Positions 251 to 22,115 of a stretch of DNA of 24,495 bases are shown here, piece by piece. Position numbers and translations under genes: made by a program. The notes beneath the pieces were generated by a model. It did no database searches, was not told where the DNA came from, and was given only the letters and a program-made list of their open reading frames with translations. This DNA comes from a virus. Each line of letters opens with the position of its first letter. The first letter of the stretch is position 1. The stretch is from positions 1-24,495 of IMG/VR virus record IMGVR_UViG_3300046311_000317; one strand, written 5' to 3'.

Positions 251-3200
251 CCTGACTTTTTAAGCTGCGTTTAGCAAACTTAGAAAAGAAGCCAGTGATT
301 TTATTGTAAGGAATTTCGATTGCTTGAGCCACTAAAGAAGTTGCTAGTAATACAGTACATATACCCCATACTCCATAACCTCTCAACTTAGAACTTACTG
401 GCACAGGCTTGAAGCCTAACTTGCCGATGGTCCAACATATCGGTAAACCGACTGCCATAATAATCTTACCAGCTAAGCTGCTCTGCTTTCTTACGCCCAT
501 CATATAAGCCATCTCTTCTGCCCATGGACGAGCTAACTTATTCAAATATTTAATAGTCAACTCTTTCTCTATACGAGAATGGGTTTCATTGCTTATGAAA
601 GGAATTACTTTAGGACCATGGCCCTCCATCCAATCTACAACAGTTTGAGCCCATGCCAAGTAACCATTGAATATCTCTGGATGAGAATCACGCAAATATC
701 TACCAAACGCTTGGTCAGCTGCGTTAACATCATCTTCAAAGAATCCTAACTCGTTTAACTTAGCGCAAATAATCTTGCCACCACCACCGCCACCGCCGCT
801 GCTAGGTACTGCTTCTGTAGTGATTTTAACTTCACCGCGTGTTCTCAAGCGGAAGGTTGATGGGCCGATCACCATTGATCCACCGTAGTTTGTTTTATTG
901 CCATCAGAATTAACTGTAGAAGTAGCTAAATCTTGAGTAATTAATGATTCTTCAACATAAGGCAATAAAATAGAGTTACTATTATAGATTGCATTATTCG
1001 TTGTAGAGTCTGTTCTACTGAAAATGGTATTTAAGTTAAACTGTTTAGATCTTGGATGCAACTCACTAAGACTTTGTTCAATGGTAGCATTGAACTCTTT
1101 GCTTGACTCTTCTGCAAACATATAGTCATCAAAATCATCTACAAAGAATCCGTTTTTAAATCTATTCACCAATGGGTTAGCTGTACTAGGAATTACTAGA
1201 TCTTTTACTTCTGTTTCTAGTAAGTTGAGACTTACGTAGTATTCAAGCTGATTAATCCGTTTTTCTAGATTGCCAATATCAGTCATAGAATAACTCTTTG
1301 CCTGATTATTTTCCTCAAAAATAGAGGTAGAAATACTAGAAGAATAATTACTAATGCGTGAGTTGATTACCCCAAGCTCGTTACCTACACTCTTATCAAA
1401 TATTTCTACATTGGTGTTGCTTACTGACAACGGTAGAGAAGGATATGGGCTTGTTGAGATTATAGACAACGTTACGCTGTCGTTAGGTTTACGAGGAGGA
1501 CGTGCTCCAGTCACAGATGGGTTACCTTCTAGTACTTGGAAAGATCCATCTTTCTTAGCAACTACTCTATCAACACGTGAGAGATAGTATTCAGCGTTGA
1601 AAGAGATTTCTGAATCAGGCGCTGGAAATAATTTATCATTAGAGTTGAATACTTCAGTGTTAGCTGGATTGACCGGAGCCCCAGCTACTGTGTTAGCAAT
1701 TGCCACTGTATTAGCTACGTATGGTCGGAAGTCGAACGAATCGCGCAAGTCAAAATATTGTTTGTCTGATGTAATTACTTCTGGAATTTCTACTGTATTA
1801 ACAGTATTGCTAGAAGCGCTTAATGTTTTACCATCATTGATTGAATATGAGGATACAGTTAAGAATCCTTCACCAGAAGATGTAAAATTATCACATTTAA
1901 CTAACAACCATTGTGTCGATCCAATATTTAACGTAGATGTGCTCTTCTTGACCAAATAGGACTGACCGTAGAAGTTACCATCGTGGCCTTGGTCGATGTA
2001 GAAGTGTTTAGTTACATCGAGATCAGCAGCTGTATTTCCAAGATATACCTTTTTCAAACGCACCGCATCCGGTAGACCTAAAGACCATGGTCCAGTCGAT
2101 CCAGCAACGTTATTGCCAGTATATAACTTAATGTAGTTATCACGACGTACTGTCTTTGTTGACTGAACTGCTGTTGTTCGTTTTACGTTATATGTGACAG
2201 CTGTATTTACAGTACCACTTAGCGTTTCATTTACATACACCTTCAACGTGCTACTACTAGGACCTGTATTAACTACACGTGTATCACGTGAAGCTAAAGG
2301 GATCGGATAGAATGCAGGGAAAAACTTCTTAGCTTTAGCTGAGGTGTTAGAAAATGATCCATTACTGTTAATGGATATATGAGTTGCATTTGTAATGCCA
2401 GTAACTCGACGCACTCCTGTTGCAGTTGCGTTTGCAGCTAGCAATATGTAATCACCAACACGCAAATCGTTAGCAAAGTTGGTGGAAGATCCTATAACGA
2501 CATTAGAAGTCGTAGACACCGTCAGAGTACCACCCAAGTTAGCAGAAGCTTCAGCATTAGCCAACGGAACAACAATAATATCATTCTTTTGAGTTGTAGT
2601 TAAACTAGCATCTGGCCCATAAGGAAACTGCTCATTAGGGTTGGCTGTTAAGTCCAACGTTAGCATACCATTAGCATTTAAAGTAACCGCTTCATCAGTG
2701 GTTCGATATGTAAATCCTATATTGTTAGCTACTTTAACGGCATTAAGTCCTGTTGGGAAAAGCAGATTGCTATTATCTGTATCTTTTAGTACAGCTTCGT
2801 TTAATGTAGTAGTTGGATTATATTCCAAAACAGCATCAGCCACACCATCATTAGTGCCATTGTAATTAACTGAACGCACATTACGGAATACTTTACCAGC
2901 AGACATCTTTATATCAAACAAATATATGCGATATACTGCATCTGGTGTGCCTGGTTCTCCAGCCTCATGTACTAAGGATCTGATACGAGCAGTACCAATC
3001 ACTTCGCCAGTAGGCGTAATAGAAGTGCCAGAAGGAACGCCAATGTTTGTTATATAAGCTTGAGCTGTATCATATAATGATATTGTATCGCCAGACTTAA
3101 ATTTGAAATTCCCAGCCAACTCTTTGATTCGTAAATAATTGCCATAGTTTGCTGTAATTACTTGCCCACTCTTTGTTAAAGTGTCTGTTGATTTTCTTAC

Positions 3201-4754
3201 ATCGAGATATGTATTTTTTAACGTCTGAATGCGCTCACCAGAAATATAGGCCAATCCTGGATCAATTACTACTGCATTATGAGTGGTATTTGATAGGGAA
3301 GTGCCATCATCGAAATCTTTATCTTTAGTAATTACTAAAAACTCATCTACGACAAAGTCTCCACTCGTTTCACTGGTGCGTCGAGCAAATTCTTTACCTA
3401 AGATATTGTATACAGTGTTTCTATTTTCTTTATATGGTTCGCCGTTCTTAAATTCAACTAAAGTAAAGAACTCAACGTTGGCAGCTGCATTTGCAGAACT
3501 AATTGTTACTAACTCTGGTACTAACTTTAATCGATCAGCACCTGGAGCAGCATAGTTAGTGGTACCTAACGCATTATCATATAAAGTACTATCAGTATTA
3601 ACGTTAGCAGTAGTTTCTGCTGTTTTGAAACCGACCACTACATTATTAGGTTGGCCTGAGTATTTGTCAACCACAATTACTTGTGGATCCACTCTTAGGA
3701 AATATCCTTTTTGATATATGATACCTTCTGTTGTGGAGAAAGCATATCCATTACCAACAGGAGCAGTGAAGTCATTATTAGCAATAGTTACTTGTGCTTT
3801 ATAATTTTTACTTGTCAAACTCAACGTGCTGATTGAAGCGGTATTGTTTGTTGGCTTAATAGTAACATGAGGTGGAATAACGTAATTGTTACCCCCTGAT
3901 TGAATATTTACGTTTACAATCACTCCAAGTGAGTCGGTTGTAATCACACCCGCAGCACCACTACCAACTAAGCTAGTTACGTTTGCCACAGCTCCGGATG
4001 ATCCTCCAGTAATGTTGTAGCCAGGTGTAAAGGACCACTCACTGGTATTTGCCGATGTGTTTGCTAAATCAGCATTCAATGGTTTAATCTGTAGTACTAA
4101 AGTATCTGTGATAATACTATTATTGACGCCAATAACAACAGCTTGAGCTCCAGTGGTAGCTTGTGTAATCGTTTCGCCGTTAGAGAATGCACCAGACGTT
4201 GTATTGACTCCCAACGCACTAACAACAACAAGACTGTCGGAGTTAGAGAAATTCAAACCTCCGTTATTAACATCTACTGCATAAATTGGATAATCCTTGC
4301 TGTATACGGTTAATACATCACCATTAGAGTATAGAGTTGTATTTCCAGTATCAGAACTATTAACATATTGTAAATATAGAGTGTTTAGATCTGGATCCTT
4401 TTGCTCGAATCCTGGACTTGTTTTGACGACGCGTGCTACTAAATTGGAGCTGTTTCTGACAAACAACCCTTCATAAGATACCGGAATTGTTGGCTGTCCG
4501 TCTACCTGCAAATCGAGAACTTTAATATATTGGTAGTTAGGAAGATATCTAAAGTTAACACCACTGATGATGGTTCCACTCTTAAATACATGATCCCCAA
4601 AACGTTCAATTTGTTTTTGGAGAATTGATTGGAGTTGGTTTAACTCACGGGCTTGTAAAGCAACGCTTGGCTTGAATAAGATACCGTAGTAATCTTTTGC
4701 TTCAGTATAGTCGTTAAAATATGGACTACGTGATAAATTGGTCTCGAGTGGCAT
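246..4754 (-). CDS. Large DUF4815-type virion structural protein with C-terminal hydrophobic domain
   Basis: This 1502-residue protein starts MPLETNLSRSPYFNDYTEAK, followed by YYGILFKPSVALQARELNQL and an ERFGDHVFKSG stretch. This is the characteristic N-terminus of DUF4815 structural proteins of marine T4-like phages, thought to belong to the baseplate periphery or fibre attachment apparatus. The middle is beta-rich and Asn/Thr/Ser-rich, and one copy of the repeated wedge module (FSNGETITQ) lies near residues 178-265. A poly-glycine run at about residues 1320-1326 separates a different C-terminal domain (about 1327-1502). That domain starts KIICAKLNELGFF, is Trp-rich, and has two hydrophobic segments near 1428-1447 and 1461-1480. 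An AAGAGGA ribosome-binding site 5 bases before the ATG supports the start. It follows gp8 by 8 bases in the same operon. The family call is good; the exact place in the virion is inferred. Confidence 0.8.
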   Translation of the reverse strand: MPLETNLSRSPYFNDYTEAKDYYGILFKPSVALQARELNQLQSILQKQIERFGDHVFKSGTIISGVNFRYLPNYQYIKVLDLQVDGQPTIPVSYEGLFVRNSSNLVARVVKTSPGFEQKDPDLNTLYLQYVNSSDTGNTTLYSNGDVLTVYSKDYPIYAVDVNNGGLNFSNSDSLVVVSALGVNTTSGAFSNGETITQATTGAQAVVIGVNNSIITDTLVLQIKPLNADLANTSANTSEWSFTPGYNITGGSSGAVANVTSLVGSGAAGVITTDSLGVIVNVNIQSGGNNYVIPPHVTIKPTNNTASISTLSLTSKNYKAQVTIANNDFTAPVGNGYAFSTTEGIIYQKGYFLRVDPQVIVVDKYSGQPNNVVVGFKTAETTANVNTDSTLYDNALGTTNYAAPGADRLKLVPELVTISSANAAANVEFFTLVEFKNGEPYKENRNTVYNILGKEFARRTSETSGDFVVDEFLVITKDKDFDDGTSLSNTTHNAVVIDPGLAYISGERIQTLKNTYLDVRKSTDTLTKSGQVITANYGNYLRIKELAGNFKFKSGDTISLYDTAQAYITNIGVPSGTSITPTGEVIGTARIRSLVHEAGEPGTPDAVYRIYLFDIKMSAGKVFRNVRSVNYNGTNDGVADAVLEYNPTTTLNEAVLKDTDNSNLLFPTGLNAVKVANNIGFTYRTTDEAVTLNANGMLTLDLTANPNEQFPYGPDASLTTTQKNDIIVVPLANAEASANLGGTLTVSTTSNVVIGSSTNFANDLRVGDYILLAANATATGVRRVTGITNATHISINSNGSFSNTSAKAKKFFPAFYPIPLASRDTRVVNTGPSSSTLKVYVNETLSGTVNTAVTYNVKRTTAVQSTKTVRRDNYIKLYTGNNVAGSTGPWSLGLPDAVRLKKVYLGNTAADLDVTKHFYIDQGHDGNFYGQSYLVKKSTSTLNIGSTQWLLVKCDNFTSSGEGFLTVSSYSINDGKTLSASSNTVNTVEIPEVITSDKQYFDLRDSFDFRPYVANTVAIANTVAGAPVNPANTEVFNSNDKLFPAPDSEISFNAEYYLSRVDRVVAKKDGSFQVLEGNPSVTGARPPRKPNDSVTLSIISTSPYPSLPLSVSNTNVEIFDKSVGNELGVINSRISNYSSSISTSIFEENNQAKSYSMTDIGNLEKRINQLEYYVSLNLLETEVKDLVIPSTANPLVNRFKNGFFVDDFDDYMFAEESSKEFNATIEQSLSELHPRSKQFNLNTIFSRTDSTTNNAIYNSNSILLPYVEESLITQDLATSTVNSDGNKTNYGGSMVIGPSTFRLRTRGEVKITTEAVPSSGGGGGGGKIICAKLNELGFFEDDVNAADQAFGRYLRDSHPEIFNGYLAWAQTVVDWMEGHGPKVIPFISNETHSRIEKELTIKYLNKLARPWAEEMAYMMGVRKQSSLAGKIIMAVGLPICWTIGKLGFKPVPVSSKLRGYGVWGICTVLLATSLVAQAIEIPYNKITGFFSKFAKRSLKSQG

Positions 4755-17243: not shown

Positions 17244-18128
17244 ATGGCCAAAGCCGCTGACTTCTTCACAAAAGCTAGAAATGTAGCCGGAACTGCAAAT
17301 GCACTCCGGGAATTCTTGCCAGATGAAATCACAAATGGTATCGATTCCATCTTTGGCGGTAACATTCTACCAGTTGGAGCTCGTAAAGGAATCAGCGGTT
17401 TCAGATCCACCATTAATAACTTAAATGGACTGCAAAGACCGAATCACTTTTACGTAACAATACCGAACCCTCCTATACTGCAGGGAGATATTGGTCCCAT
17501 CTTATTGCCGTTTTTAACGGAGTCAGCAACTATTCCTGGCGTATCTTTAGCAACATCAGATGTTAGACGTTACGGATATGGTCCAACCGAGAAAAAGCCG
17601 TATGCTCCTATATTTGTTGACCAACAGATGACCTTTTTAGGAGACGCGTCTGGTGTTGTTCATAAGTTCTTTTATAAGTGGATGAACGGTATTGTAAAAT
17701 ATGATGAGTTCCCTCGAGGTAGACCAGGATTCAATGGAGTACGTCCTTTTGAGGTTGAATATAAGCGCCAATACGCCGTCGACATTATAATCACAGCCAT
17801 TGATGAAGTCGATCGGAAGATAATGGAAGTAAAGCTGTATGATGCGTTCCCAATCGCTATGGGTGATATAGGGTTGAGTTGGAACCAAAATGACAGCTAC
17901 GTCGGTATACCAATCACGTTTTCTTACTATAAATGGAAACGTACAGATATTAGTATCAATCTTGATGAATTAATTGGAGAAGACATTTCTCCAGTACAAA
18001 GATTGTTGAAGGCAGGAACTGCAATCCAGACTCTTGCTAAAATTAAAAAGCCCAACAACGTTGCAGATATTCTCAACGTCGTCAACAATAGTAAAGTTGC
18101 TGTTGGAAGCTTAGGAGGTTTCTTTTAA
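17244..18128 (+). CDS. gp54: gp54-like baseplate tail tube initiator
   Basis: gp54 forms the ring on which the first tail-tube ring (gp19) assembles. The 294-residue protein (T4: 320) has an N-terminal helical region, then a tube-type domain starting about residue 66 (RPNHFYVTIPNPP). The motif PFLTESATIPGVSLAT is typical of T4-like tube proteins, and DQQMTFLGDASGVVHKFFYK and a later YDAFPIAMGDIGLSWNQND follow. The last strand is IPITFSYYKWKR. It could in principle be a tail tube paralogue. Its position with gp26 and next to gp48/gp53, and its extra C-terminal helical region, favour gp54. AGG about 8 bases before the ATG supports the start. Confidence 0.72.
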   Translation: MAKAADFFTKARNVAGTANALREFLPDEITNGIDSIFGGNILPVGARKGISGFRSTINNLNGLQRPNHFYVTIPNPPILQGDIGPILLPFLTESATIPGVSLATSDVRRYGYGPTEKKPYAPIFVDQQMTFLGDASGVVHKFFYKWMNGIVKYDEFPRGRPGFNGVRPFEVEYKRQYAVDIIITAIDEVDRKIMEVKLYDAFPIAMGDIGLSWNQNDSYVGIPITFSYYKWKRTDISINLDELIGEDISPVQRLLKAGTAIQTLAKIKKPNNVADILNVVNNSKVAVGSLGGFF

Positions 18129-18137
18129 GGAGTTATT

Positions 18138-18848
18138 ATGGCATTACCAAAAATCAGTCACCCAATATTTGAATTGACATTACCATCCACCAAACAAACA
18201 ATTCGCTACAGACCTTTCTTGGTCAAAGAAGAAAAGATTCTTCTAACTGCTCAAGCATCTGGCGAACCGCAAGACATTATCTTATCAATTAGACAAGTAA
18301 TCAATAACTGTATTCTAACAGAAGGAATTGATATTGAAGACTTAACAACATTTGATTTAGAGTATTTGTTTATTAAAATTAGAGCTAAATCTGTTAACAA
18401 TATTATAAGTTTGACATATAGAGATTTAGAAGATGAAAAGCGTTATGATGTAGAAGTTGATCTAGATCAAATTGAAATGAAAGAAGATCCGACTCACACA
18501 AATATAGTGGATGTCGGTAACGGCATTTCTTTGACAATGCGTTATCCAAAAGCAGACATTGCATCATCATTAAAGGCTGTTGATGGTGAACTAGATGTAT
18601 TCTTTGAAGTTTTGAGAAACTGCATTGCTACAATTAATGACGGTGAGCAAACGCACGTTACGAGCGACTATGGCTCCGAAGAGATGGATGAATTTATTCA
18701 ATCCCTTGACGTGAATGCATTTAAGAAGATTCAAGAGTTTTTTTCAACTATGCCTAAACTGTACTATGAAGTCAAATATACTAATAGCTTAGGTAATGAA
18801 AAGGTCATCCCACTGACTACATTAAATGATTTTTTTACGTTGGGCTGA
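18138..18848 (+). CDS. gp26: Baseplate hub assembly protein gp26
   Basis: This 236-residue protein starts MALPKISHPIFELTLPSTKQ and continues IRYRPFLVKEEKILLTAQAS. This is the hallmark N-terminus of T4 gp26-type baseplate proteins, which are needed for hub assembly (T4 gp26: 208 residues). The C-terminal third (FIQSLDVNAFKKIQEFFSTM, then PKLYYEVKYTNSLGNEKVIP) is typical of the family. A strong AAGGAG ribosome-binding site lies 5 bases before the ATG. The gene ends in a run of seven T (18830-18836) followed by ACG TTG GGC TGA. The following gp51-like frame lies in -1 and lacks its own start, so this protein probably also serves as the N-terminal part of a frameshifted gp26-gp51 product. Confidence 0.9.
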   Translation: MALPKISHPIFELTLPSTKQTIRYRPFLVKEEKILLTAQASGEPQDIILSIRQVINNCILTEGIDIEDLTTFDLEYLFIKIRAKSVNNIISLTYRDLEDEKRYDVEVDLDQIEMKEDPTHTNIVDVGNGISLTMRYPKADIASSLKAVDGELDVFFEVLRNCIATINDGEQTHVTSDYGSEEMDEFIQSLDVNAFKKIQEFFSTMPKLYYEVKYTNSLGNEKVIPLTTLNDFFTLG

Positions 18849-19024
18849 GTCATAACTCATTAGCAAACTACTATACGCTAATATTCAGTTTGGCTCAGCA
18901 TCATAAATGGTCAGTGACAGAGATAGAAGATATGATACCTTTTGAGCGTGATCTTTATGTGGATATGTTGAAGGATTATTTAGAAAAAGAACAAGAGAGA
19001 TTAAAATCTAAAGGACATGGCTGA
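18138..19024 (+). CDS. gp26-gp51: Predicted -1 frameshift product: gp26-gp51 fusion
   Basis: If ribosomes slip -1 on T TTT TTT at 18830-18836, codons 1-233 of gp26 are joined to 62 codons read from 18836, giving a 295-residue protein ending at TGA 19022-19024. The -1 frame is closed just upstream by TGA at 18827-18829 and then open to 19024. The encoded extension reads YVGLSHNSLANYYTLIFSLA, then QHHKWSVTEIEDMIPFERDL, then YVDMLKDYLEKEQE. This is a recognisable gp51-like small helical protein of T4-like phages (hub assembly factor). No ATG occurs before residue D-M-I in the middle of the conserved part. The extension overlaps the start of the next gene by 8 bases. Frameshifting is inferred from sequence; protein evidence is needed. 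Confidence 0.72.
18830..18899 (+). promoter_or_regulatory. Programmed -1 frameshift signal (slippery heptamer plus stem-loop)
   Basis: The heptamer T TTT TTT (18830-18836) is in the correct register of gp26 (GAT TTT TTT ACG), so both Phe tRNAs can re-pair after a -1 slip. After a 7-base spacer (18837-18843) lies a long imperfect hairpin. Bases 18844-18852 pair with 18891-18899 (9 pairs, one G-U), 18854-18857 with 18887-18890 (4 pairs), and 18859-18864 with 18877-18882 (6 pairs); the loop is 18865-18876. The gp26 stop codon is inside the first stem. Spacer length and structure match known -1 frameshift stimulators. Confidence 0.72.
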
Positions 19025-20324
19025 TACAAAGACCACTGCAATGAACGAAGCTAAGGATGCTGCTTTAGACAGCATCGGCTTCGTTTTGTCTGCTACAAAA
19101 ACTCAATCAGTTCAATTAAAGAAATCGTCACTGCTTGCAGCACGTAACGTCGTAGCGGTGCGTAAAAATTTAGTATCTCTCGTAACTACTTTTAAAACAT
19201 ATCAAAATACAATCAAGCAAATACAAGCCGTCGTTGGTAAAGGCGGAGATGCTAATAGCAAGGTATCTAAAATTAGTGGCATACTTCAATCTGGAGGAGA
19301 TGCATACAAAGAAAAAGAAGCAGAGCAAGAAGACAAACCAAAAGCCACCGAATTGGTGAAGGGCATTGGTAAGAATGTAGCTACTGCTGCAGGCTCTGCA
19401 TTAGCCCTAGCCATTCCATTCTTATTGAGTCCAGAAATGCGCGAAATGTTGATGAGTTTCTTTAGCGGTTTCTTGGAAGGTTTGGGATTAGGTAAAGATG
19501 CCCTGGATAAAGTTAAGCTCGGATTCGGAATAGCTGCTGGTATATTGATAGCTTATTTCTCTGCATCAGTTATATCAAGTATAGCAGGGGCATTCATGCA
19601 AATGCAAAAACTAGCGCAGGTGTTGGGATTGGCTGGTGAGGTCGTAAGCGCTGAGAAAACCAAAATAGATACAGAGAAAGATAAAGTCAAGCAAGCAGGC
19701 AAGGGAACTAAAGCAGAGTTGGATAGTGCCAAAAAGGACATGAAGAAGAATAGCAAGGGCAATCTTCTAAAACGACTAGGAGTGCTTAAAAATACACTAG
19801 GTCCTAAACTATTGAAGTTGGGCAAAAACTTTCTTAAAGCACTACCAATAGTTGGCACAGTTTTAGGCATAGGACTCATTTTGTATGATTTGTTTGATAT
19901 AGGTAAAGATGTTTGGAATTTCCTTAAAGGGGAAGAAACGACGGACGCTGAAGATAAGCAAAACACAGAGCAAGAAGATGCAGCTCCTGTTTCTGCTACA
20001 TCTGCTCCAGCGTCAGCTGCTGCCTCTGCCCCTGCAGCAGCTGAGGCAGAAATAAAAGCACCAACAAGTAATACATCTGCAGCAGAAATGACTTCAGCTA
20101 GCTCTGCTCCCGTTGCAGCTGAACCAGCCGATACCCCTCGCGCTGAAGGTATGGCCATACAAGAAAGTTCCGTAAAGGTAGAGCAAGCTGATTCAGATCT
20201 TGCTCGTACTGCTGGGGGAGTAAATATTACTACAATAGACAATTCTACAACAATAATGTCCAGCCCTAAATCAGCTACCGCACCTCCTTCAACGCTAGTA
20301 TATTCAGTAACGGTAGGAATGTAA
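19017..20324 (+). CDS. Tape-measure/hub-like protein A
   Basis: This 435-residue protein has a helical, Lys/Thr-rich N-terminus. Three hydrophobic segments follow at about 121-137 (VATAAGSALALAIPFLL), 169-192 (GFGIAAGILIAYFSASVISS) and 273-295 (LKALPIVGTVLGIGLILYDL). The C-terminal tail (about 305-435) is low-complexity, rich in Ala, Ser and Pro. It lies right after gp26/gp51, where tape-measure or hub core proteins are found. T4 gp29 (590 residues) is the tape measure there, and such proteins carry hydrophobic segments near the C-terminus that enter the host membrane. The core (about 124-200) resembles residues 177-257 of the next protein, so the two look like duplicates. The start overlaps the gp51-like frame by 8 bases; AAGGA is unusually close to the ATG, so translation may be coupled. 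Confidence 0.65.
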   Translation: MADTKTTAMNEAKDAALDSIGFVLSATKTQSVQLKKSSLLAARNVVAVRKNLVSLVTTFKTYQNTIKQIQAVVGKGGDANSKVSKISGILQSGGDAYKEKEAEQEDKPKATELVKGIGKNVATAAGSALALAIPFLLSPEMREMLMSFFSGFLEGLGLGKDALDKVKLGFGIAAGILIAYFSASVISSIAGAFMQMQKLAQVLGLAGEVVSAEKTKIDTEKDKVKQAGKGTKAELDSAKKDMKKNSKGNLLKRLGVLKNTLGPKLLKLGKNFLKALPIVGTVLGIGLILYDLFDIGKDVWNFLKGEETTDAEDKQNTEQEDAAPVSATSAPASAAASAPAAAEAEIKAPTSNTSAAEMTSASSAPVAAEPADTPRAEGMAIQESSVKVEQADSDLARTAGGVNITTIDNSTTIMSSPKSATAPPSTLVYSVTVGM

Positions 20325-20327
20325 TAA

Positions 20328-22115
20328 ATGGCTAACAAAAAGAATCTTCCTAAACTATCCAAACGCACAGCAAATTTGGAAGCATGGCTCGATGAAGTTA
20401 CAAAGAAACACAACTACGTTGCCAAAGAAGTGGAGTATGCACATAGCGATCTAGCATTGGTTAGAGGCAGACTTGATAAAATTGAGAAGCATGAGGAAAA
20501 GACTGATAAGAGCATCGAGGAGATGCGCGGTATTATCAATGCAGTTAACAAAAAGGCAGGTTTATTAACTAATGTTGCTGCTAAGAATGCAGGTAAGGTA
20601 AAAACTGCTGAGCAAGGTGCAACAGGGAAACCCGACACATCCAACACAATAGCTGCATTAACTAGTTCTATGAATATAATTGCTACTTCATTAGGAATAA
20701 TGAATAGTAGCCTATCGAAAGCTTTAGGTGTAAAGATGGCTCCTATGGGAGCTCAGAAAGAAGAAGCTCCAGGTCCATCAGGAATCCCAGCTCCTAAAGA
20801 AGGAGAAAAAGAACAAGGTATATTTGGTCTACTCAAAGGATTGTTCTCAAATCCTGCTGTCGTAGCTGCAATAGCTGGCATTGTATACACCGTATTGCCA
20901 AAAGAAACACAAGAACAAATTAAAGGGTTCTTGGGGGGATTCGCTGATGGTCTCGGAGAGGCTATGGGGAAGAATGAGCAAGAAGGTATGGGAGGTTTCA
21001 ACACAGCCCTTAAAGCAGCTGGTATTGCATTGACTGCATATTTTGGCGCTAAGATGATTAGCGGGGTTGCTGGTGCAATCACAACAACGCTAAAAATTGT
21101 CAAGATGATGGGTGGCGGTAAGCTAGGCAGAGGTCTTGCTGTTGCTGGAGCTGCAGCTGCAGTTGGTGGTGCTGTTGCGATGAGTGGTGGAGACGATGAA
21201 GAGGGCGGTGGCGGTGAAGCAGCTGCTGCAGGAGGAGCAGTTCCAAGTGGCGGAGATGCTGGAGGCGCTGAATCTAAACCATCTCCCGCTGGCACGAGCT
21301 TGCCTAAACCTAAAGATACAACAGCTCCTAAGGCACCCCCTGGATCATCAAGTACAGGTAGTAACGTACCAGACAATATCGATTTAAAGAGTGTAGTCAA
21401 TGCTGGTTCTGGCGTTGACTTAGAAGGTCTTGACCCATCAGCCAAAAAACGTCTTGCAGGTATGGCATATGAGTACCAGCAGAAGACTGGCAAGAAACTA
21501 CAAGTTAACTCTGCTTATAGAGACCCAGAAAAGCAAGCACAGCTGTATGCTAAGATAGGACCTCCCAATGCTGCCCCTCCTGGAAAGAGCTGGCACGAAA
21601 AGGGATTGGCTTTTGATATTAACTCAGCAGATGCTAATAAAGCAGATGAGCTTGGACTCATGGCTAAGTATGGATTCAAGCGACCTGTGGCTAAAGAGCC
21701 ATGGCACGTAGAATTATCTGAGACAAGAGGCGGCCCAGCATATGCTGATAATCCAGCTGCGCCTGGGGCTGCTGTTGCTGTTGCAGATAAGAGTGGTAAA
21801 CCATCAATACCCGCATCAGGTAAAACCACTGCAGCAGGTGAGGTAGCATCAGCCCCAGGTGCTGGTAGCACCCCAGCCGATAGCGCTACATTAGCACAAG
21901 ATAATAATAATACCGGACAACAAGTCAATAGCTTATCGCAAAATGTCAAGGATGCTGCTAGGCCTGGATCTTCCACTTCTATGGCAAGCGTTGACAACTC
22001 ACAAAAAGGTGGGACAGGAAGTCAAGAAGCAGCTCCTCAACAACCTATCCCATCACCTATTGCTTCAAGAGGCTCACTAGGAGCCTTCACAAAACATAGT
22101 ACAGCTTACGCTTAA
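20328..22115 (+). CDS. Tape-measure/hub-like protein B with M15-type peptidase domain
   Basis: This 595-residue protein has a coiled-coil N-terminus (about 15-75) and hydrophobic segments near 175-190, 227-255 and 268-285. A Gly/Ala/Pro-rich linker (about 287-350) follows. The next domain (about 351-466) has the layout of D-Ala-D-Ala or L-Ala-D-Glu carboxypeptidases (peptidase M15/VanY): SAYRDP with R398, the motif SWHEKGLAFD with zinc ligands H423 and D430, then E457 in EPWHVEL with ligand H460. Such domains cut peptide cross-links in peptidoglycan. The tail (about 470-595) is low complexity. The central core resembles that of the preceding protein. It follows 3 bases after that gene, with AGGA 9 bases upstream. 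It probably carries the tail's peptidoglycan-cutting activity, since gp5 has no lysozyme. Its stop overlaps the convergent gp32 tail frame. Confidence 0.75.
   Translation: MANKKNLPKLSKRTANLEAWLDEVTKKHNYVAKEVEYAHSDLALVRGRLDKIEKHEEKTDKSIEEMRGIINAVNKKAGLLTNVAAKNAGKVKTAEQGATGKPDTSNTIAALTSSMNIIATSLGIMNSSLSKALGVKMAPMGAQKEEAPGPSGIPAPKEGEKEQGIFGLLKGLFSNPAVVAAIAGIVYTVLPKETQEQIKGFLGGFADGLGEAMGKNEQEGMGGFNTALKAAGIALTAYFGAKMISGVAGAITTTLKIVKMMGGGKLGRGLAVAGAAAAVGGAVAMSGGDDEEGGGGEAAAAGGAVPSGGDAGGAESKPSPAGTSLPKPKDTTAPKAPPGSSSTGSNVPDNIDLKSVVNAGSGVDLEGLDPSAKKRLAGMAYEYQQKTGKKLQVNSAYRDPEKQAQLYAKIGPPNAAPPGKSWHEKGLAFDINSADANKADELGLMAKYGFKRPVAKEPWHVELSETRGGPAYADNPAAPGAAVAVADKSGKPSIPASGKTTAAGEVASAPGAGSTPADSATLAQDNNNTGQQVNSLSQNVKDAARPGSSTSMASVDNSQKGGTGSQEAAPQQPIPSPIASRGSLGAFTKHSTAYA

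Follow-up and report, generated by a model that had tools for sequence, protein, structure and literature searches.

How the C-terminal domain labelled gp51 is produced is the question raised by the gp26-gp51 junction of the window, by which we mean the whole stretch of 24,495 nt analysed here, a fragment of an uncultured marine T4-like phage. The domain lies in the -1 frame relative to gp26, directly after a run of T. A comparable arrangement is described for phage lambda, in which one gene (gpG/gpGT) yields by -1 slippage a short and a long chaperone, which work on the tail tube protein and on the tape measure protein (PMC5009743). On the evidence of the window and its relatives, we consider it very probable that -1 ribosomal frameshifting makes two tail assembly chaperones from a single gene here, the short being gp26 and the long a gp26-gp51 fusion.

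The sequence-only reading of this DNA had arrived at the same pair and knew of no description of it for gp26 and gp51, a point that needs correcting, as a frameshift-made chaperone pair in T4-like phages has already been reported (Vladimirov, Gautam and Davidson, Virology 2022). In the passages that cite it, that work is credited with poly-T slippery sites in the TAC-N genes of T4-like phages (Vladimirov et al., 2022), and the PRFect paper cites it for the statement that some T4-like phages instead have a short gene alongside a longer, fused one (PMC10885494). The mechanism is therefore known and the window locus adds one further example, with the same poly-T slippery site as those T4-like phages but in an uncultured phage fragment. 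Several T4-like groups reportedly keep the frameshift, and T4 is said to use genes 26 and 51 instead.

Anatomy of the gp26-gp51 junction

The anatomy of the junction is observed directly (all features are on the plus strand). The gp26 ORF, the putative short tail assembly chaperone (TAC-N), runs from 18138 to 18848 and encodes 236 aa; its last codons, read from the window sequence, are GAT TTT TTT ACG TTG GGC TGA, with the stop at 18846-18848. The slippery heptamer T TTT TTT at 18830-18836 is in register with gp26 and is the sole in-register X XXY YYZ heptamer within it. Another run of seven T occurs in gp26 at 18738-18744, where the reading is G TTT TTT, with no slippery heptamer in register.

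Directly 5' of the heptamer the -1 frame has a TGA stop (18827-18829), which bars entry into the C-terminal frame from further upstream. Translated from 18830 to 19024, this frame reads FFYVGLSHNSL...KGHG and then stops, and a one-base backward slip at the heptamer yields FFYVGLSHNSLANYYTLIFSLAQHHKWSVTEIEDMIPFERDLYVDMLKDYLEKEQERLKSKGHG. The C-terminal 'gp51' domain (TAC-C) of the putative long form takes up 18837-19024, with its stop at 19022-19024. The first start-type codons of the -1 frame after the heptamer are TTG at +60, GTG at +84 and ATG at +102, all of them inside the conserved domain. With the frame closed by TGA and without ATG, GTG or TTG until +60, translation of the whole conserved domain needs the slip, or else an unusual start codon. 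The gp26 ORF, the in-register heptamer and a -1 gp51 frame without a start codon ahead of its conserved part are all present as the sequence-only reading had described them.

The same is true of the spacer and hairpin. A 65-nt fold reproduces a 7-nt spacer (18837-18843) followed by a predicted stimulatory stem-loop of 19 pairs at 18844-18899 (-20.3 kcal/mol), with an outer 9-bp stem in which 18844-18852 pairs with 18891-18899. In a 70-nt fold there are three further outer pairs, the stem begins at 18841, the spacer is 4 nt and the energy is -21.1 kcal/mol. The 0-frame stop of gp26 falls within the 5' arm of this hairpin. When the -1 frame was resampled synonymously 200 times, the window's own 60 nt from heptamer+9 had a more stable fold than 199 of the resampled sequences.

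In ribosomal frameshifting as proposed here, most ribosomes would terminate at the gp26 stop (18846), giving the short form, while a fraction would pause at the stem-loop with two tRNA-Phe on T TTT TTT, slip back one base and continue in the -1 frame to 19022. The slip would thereby join the gp51 domain to gp26 in one protein (TAC-NC, ...NDFFYVGLSHNSL...). That slippage occurs, that it is ribosomal and its efficiency are our inferences; many short copies and few long ones would together cover the tape measure protein and bring in the subunits of the tail tube, as lambda gpG/gpGT do, and would then leave the finished tail. The lambda heptamer is GGGAAAG, whereas that of the window consists of T only and is followed by a covarying stem.

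Conservation of the slippery site and competing explanations

By tblastn, gp26 was found in 702 phage records and the gp51 domain in 554. The loci taken were the best 80 of 598 IMG/VR loci, 113 more from later scans, and named phages. In the initial set, before any selection, all 78 junctions (the window's and those of 77 loci, leaving out L021, L030 and L064 as contig ends) had the domain in -1 at T TTT TTY. In a set of 206 records the domain was in -1 in 186 and in the same frame in nine, all with a T4-type gp51; it was not found near gp26 in ten, and one record (L180) was without a gp26 match. Seven of the ten are contig ends (L008, L021, L022, L030, L064, L151 and L165), two have a divergent domain (L083 and L090, included again in the 194-locus count) and one is T4-type (L178). 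T TTT TTY stands at the homologous place in 166 of the 186 records with the domain in -1 (TTC in 111, TTT in 55), the rest being 19 Ackermannviridae-type records without the heptamer and one broken T4-type gene.

The sequence-only reading had looked to the gp26-gp51 borders of related phages for a conserved slippery site, and such a site was found: 172 of 194 loci (22 lack it) have T TTT TTY right at the junction, as do 88 of 94 representatives left after clustering at 80% identity, a step that removes phages present twice (KVP40 as L086 and L184, T4 as L091 and L092). The six representatives without the heptamer are L083, L084, L193, L203 and L213, all Ackermannviridae-type, and L181, the broken T4-type gene. 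L181, an IMG/VR record, has its T4-type gp51 (2983-3755) divided between two frames, possibly through an assembly error. The 172 loci and 88 representatives of the start, folding, stem and Shine-Dalgarno (SD) analyses were picked for the junction heptamer, so that '88/88' in those analyses is by construction, and misses are counted in the 172/194 loci and 88/94 representatives. Among 16 named phages read, 13 have the site (Melnitz-3, S-ShM2, IC12, KVP40, 65.2, DLP6, pf16, Ps15, CC2, X1, OLIVR6, S13 and Ah1) and three do not (Vibrio 1.244, KZag1 and Cygsa01).

As a control, other Phe-Phe pairs of the same genes read T TTT TTY in 4 of 85 cases. The residue preceding FF at the junction varies (D, S, N, A, G or T), and its codon ends in T in all 88 representatives; with amino acids and local codon usage taken into account, this pattern has a log10 probability of -35.7, a value that is conditional on loci picked for having the heptamer and uncorrected for relatedness. 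Chance appears very unlikely as the source of the junction heptamer, given these relatives.

The strongest competitor to ribosomal frameshifting, though an improbable one, is that gp51 is a separate small protein with its own start codon or with stop-start coupling at the end of gp26. In KVP40 a TAATG lies in the -1 frame just past the slippery site and the ORF is annotated from there, and the annotated gp51 of S-ShM2 begins 15 nt past the first base of the heptamer. Forty-one of the 88 heptamer-bearing representatives also have a -1-frame ATG no more than 60 nt downstream, which makes separate initiation possible in those. Against this, 34 of the 88, the window included, have no ATG, GTG or TTG up to +57, and in the window the -1 frame is closed upstream by TGA; only two of the 88 have ATG, GTG or TTG upstream in the -1 frame. 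A separate gp51 also sits poorly with the retention of T TTT TTY across the representatives, and with the T4-type gp51, which carries the domain fused. An independent gp51 start is rejected for the window, where none precedes +60, and may operate in relatives that have an ATG. In KVP40 (L086, 3810-3824) the T TTT TTC site and the TAATG start are both present, and this phage could thus make the C-terminal domain fused to gp26 as well as free.

The Ackermannviridae-type relatives bear on the same competitor. The sequence-only reading had counted relatives with an ATG and ribosome-binding site for gp51 and no slippery site as evidence against frameshifting, and relatives of this kind do exist in part: the Ackermannviridae-type phages are without the site, and some have an ATG overlapping the gp26 stop. 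As noted above, 41 of the 88 representatives that keep T TTT TTY have a downstream ATG as well. In L188-L205, L084, L083 and L213 the C-terminal domain is in -1 with no slippery heptamer. A TAATG stop-start overlap is seen in Vibrio 1.244, Cygsa01 and L203-L205; L084 and L188-L202 read TAATT, that is, ATT where the others have that ATG, which suggests an unusual AUU start or another mechanism.

Slightly less probable still is transcriptional slippage, in which RNA polymerase would add one U on the T run in part of the transcripts and the same fusion would result. There is a T run at the site, and from the sequence one extra U should lead to an identical FFY junction. The runs are short, however, with only six T and then C at 111 of 166 sites; no site has a T directly ahead of the run, and eight T in a row occur at just 5 of 172 sites. 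Slippage by the polymerase would, moreover, have no need of a covarying stem placed at the spacing of a frameshift site. Transcriptional slippage is disfavoured by these run counts. Both parts form one ORF in T4-type gp51, and a single fused gene broken by a frameshift error of sequencing or assembly might be supposed here. This explanation has practically no standing and is rejected, being refuted by the 172 loci in which the -1 break falls at the identical heptamer, complete genomes of phage isolates among them.

Homology to T4 gp26 and gp51, and a probable chaperone role

The gp26 of the window matches PF12322 (T4_baseplate, E 1.3e-55) and phrog_150 (E 4e-63), and the -1 domain matches phrog_634, 'baseplate hub assembly catalyst' (E 1.2e-24). 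A weak match of the -1 domain to the C-terminal end of phrog_150 first hinted at in-frame fusions. NCBIfam gave nothing for the window's gp26 or gp51, and only sub-cut-off matches for those of T4. In T4, gene 26 (208 aa) and gene 51 (249 aa) lie on opposite strands and are divergently transcribed. T4 gp26 and gp51 match PF12322 full length (E 8.8e-64 and 3.9e-52, respectively), with residues 1-201 of gp51 in PF12322 and residues 147-246 in phrog_634 (E 1.2e-23); of the two, only gp51 has the phrog_634 C-terminal domain. Because both T4 proteins belong to PF12322 and gp51 alone has phrog_634, T4 gp26 corresponds to the short form and T4 gp51 to the long form. The short and the longer fused chaperone genes of T4 are presumably genes 26 and 51, in agreement with these matches. 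Homology to T4-type gp51 extends beyond the -1 domain: a profile of the window gp26 aligns by hhalign to a T4-type gp51 profile (97.5%, E 8e-12), with the alignment ending at the junction.

T4 differs from the window in that its short and long forms are two separate paralogous genes, for which no frameshift is needed, whereas in the window one gene would give both forms. T4 and its nearer relatives would obtain the same two products via their two separate genes, and phiAS4, DLP3, PHB13 and SJ_PmiM have the T4 arrangement according to annotation. T4 gp26 (L091, 4306-4929) also weakly matches phrog_1140, the gp28 family (baseplate hub distal subunit, E 9e-4), and gp28 may be a further distant relative. 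The label 'gp51' given earlier to the -1 frame of the window holds in so far as this frame is homologous to T4 gp51 (phrog_634), but it covers only the C-terminal domain of that protein. In a review of the T4 tail, gp26 and gp51 are listed as hub assembly chaperones, with gp51 described as essential and of unknown function (PMC3004832). Cyanophage and marine vibriophage gp51 proteins are noted to be without the first ~200 residues (Sullivan et al., 2010; PMC3037559). Frameshifting would explain this 'reduced' gp51, as the missing residues correspond to gp26, joined by slippage.

The fold of gp26 was approached through an AF2 model of the window protein (pLDDT 89). VIA-align pairs the model with 3fgx over 86 residues and with 2ob9, the HK97 tail assembly chaperone, over 84, each at Z 7.8, although Z values below 8 may reflect only a common arrangement; the next matches are 5ir0, of unknown function (Z 5.2), and then unrelated rows from 2.5 down. 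Foldseek gave E 2.3 for the model against 2ob9. When a model of the long form (gp26-gp51) was compared with the PDB, no chaperone was among the matches listed, and a search of solved structures by sequence gave none for window gp26 or T4 gp51. The structure alignment (A4) comprises 70/72 gp26 sequences passing a length and start filter. The predicted fold of gp26 bears a modest resemblance to the HK97 tail assembly chaperone: 2ob9 and 3fgx are like its N-terminal 86-96 residues, but gp26 has ~140 further residues.

Gene order is the third line of evidence. In lambda the order is tube, chaperone, tape measure. In the window the upstream neighbour of gp26 (17244-18128, 294 aa) is a tail tube family protein (PF23849 Phage_TTP_2, E 1.6e-8; phrog_45 tail tube, E 1.5e-33). 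Downstream are two ORFs that are tape-measure candidates by position, one of 435 aa (19017-20324), overlapping the end of the gp51 frame, and one of 595 aa (20328-22115), which matches PF02557 VanY (E 2.4e-8) and phrog_13118 endolysin (E 4e-17). The two share a 119-residue hydrophobic region at 38% identity (E 1e-10). Neither has a match to a tape-measure family in PHROGs, and the earlier description of these genes as tape-measure-like, which draws on position and the shared hydrophobic stretch, is less firm than the features of the junction. S-ShM2 likewise has two large tandem ORFs at the homologous place, one of 1083 aa and one of 3.6 kb.

Homology, the modest fold resemblance and gene order together point to a chaperone role. 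The proposal that gp26 and the gp26-gp51 fusion are the short and long members of a chaperone pair is supported further by the slippery site in 88 of 94 representatives and the covarying stem, and by T4 gp51, which is the in-frame version of the fusion.

Putative stimulatory elements and their possible turnover

Representatives with the heptamer fall into a T TTT TTT group and a T TTT TTC group of 44 each (TTT and TTC below), and the two differ around the slippery site. The mean z of folding energy (60 nt from heptamer+9, synonymous resampling) is -2.12 in the TTT group and -1.44 in the TTC group, compared with 0.17 and -0.57, respectively, in a control region further on. The outer stem covaries in the TTT group, to which the window belongs: 86.4% of cells are paired along the 9-bp stem, against 22-37% with partners slid by 1-3, and double changes are seen in 7 of 9 pairs. 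There are 21 double-change cells versus 5.9 in shuffled alignments (0/500). The 9-bp stem counted was derived from the window's own fold and leans towards that structure, with the slides and shuffles serving as the control. A covarying stem in relatives, which the sequence-only reading had also looked for, is in this way found for the outer stem in the 44 sequences of the window's group. RNAalifold gave no consensus structure on the 44 aligned TTT-group sites, perhaps because of the long variable loop.

In the TTC group the named 9-bp stem is weak (54.8% paired), and in 20 of 44 representatives GAGGG ends 9 nt ahead of the heptamer. The mean anti-SD energy upstream of the heptamer is -6.5 kcal/mol in the TTC group and -3.0 kcal/mol in the TTT group, with gene bodies at about -2.2 kcal/mol; values of -5 kcal/mol or below are found in 33 of 44 TTC representatives versus 11 of 44 TTT representatives. 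The SD-like element is in the top 5% of its own gene in only 16 of 44 TTC representatives. At the cut-offs used, SD-like element and stem occur together in 10 of 88 representatives and neither occurs in 16 of 88, and their exclusivity has a Fisher p of 2e-4 at one pair of cut-offs, uncorrected for relatedness. On the gp26 tree the stimulator state changes 21 times.

These patterns raise the possibility, to which we give somewhat less than an even chance, that in the T4 superfamily the slippery site is near-invariant while the stimulator swaps between lineages, from a stem 7 nt downstream to an SD-like element or the reverse. The stem type would belong to the window's clade, in which T TTT TTT predominates, and the SD-like type to most T TTT TTC representatives. 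This split was not found described in the open-access literature searched, a scope outside which Vladimirov et al. (2022) falls. With the main finding already in print since 2022, what the present analysis adds is confirmation on a larger scale, together with the stimulator pattern. Some public records also leave the gp51 domain unannotated, with CC2, Ah1, S13 and 65.2 among those read. If the stimulator does swap between lineages, the short-to-long ratio would be under selection while the element that controls it turns over, and the line of T4 would later have fixed that ratio by gene duplication.
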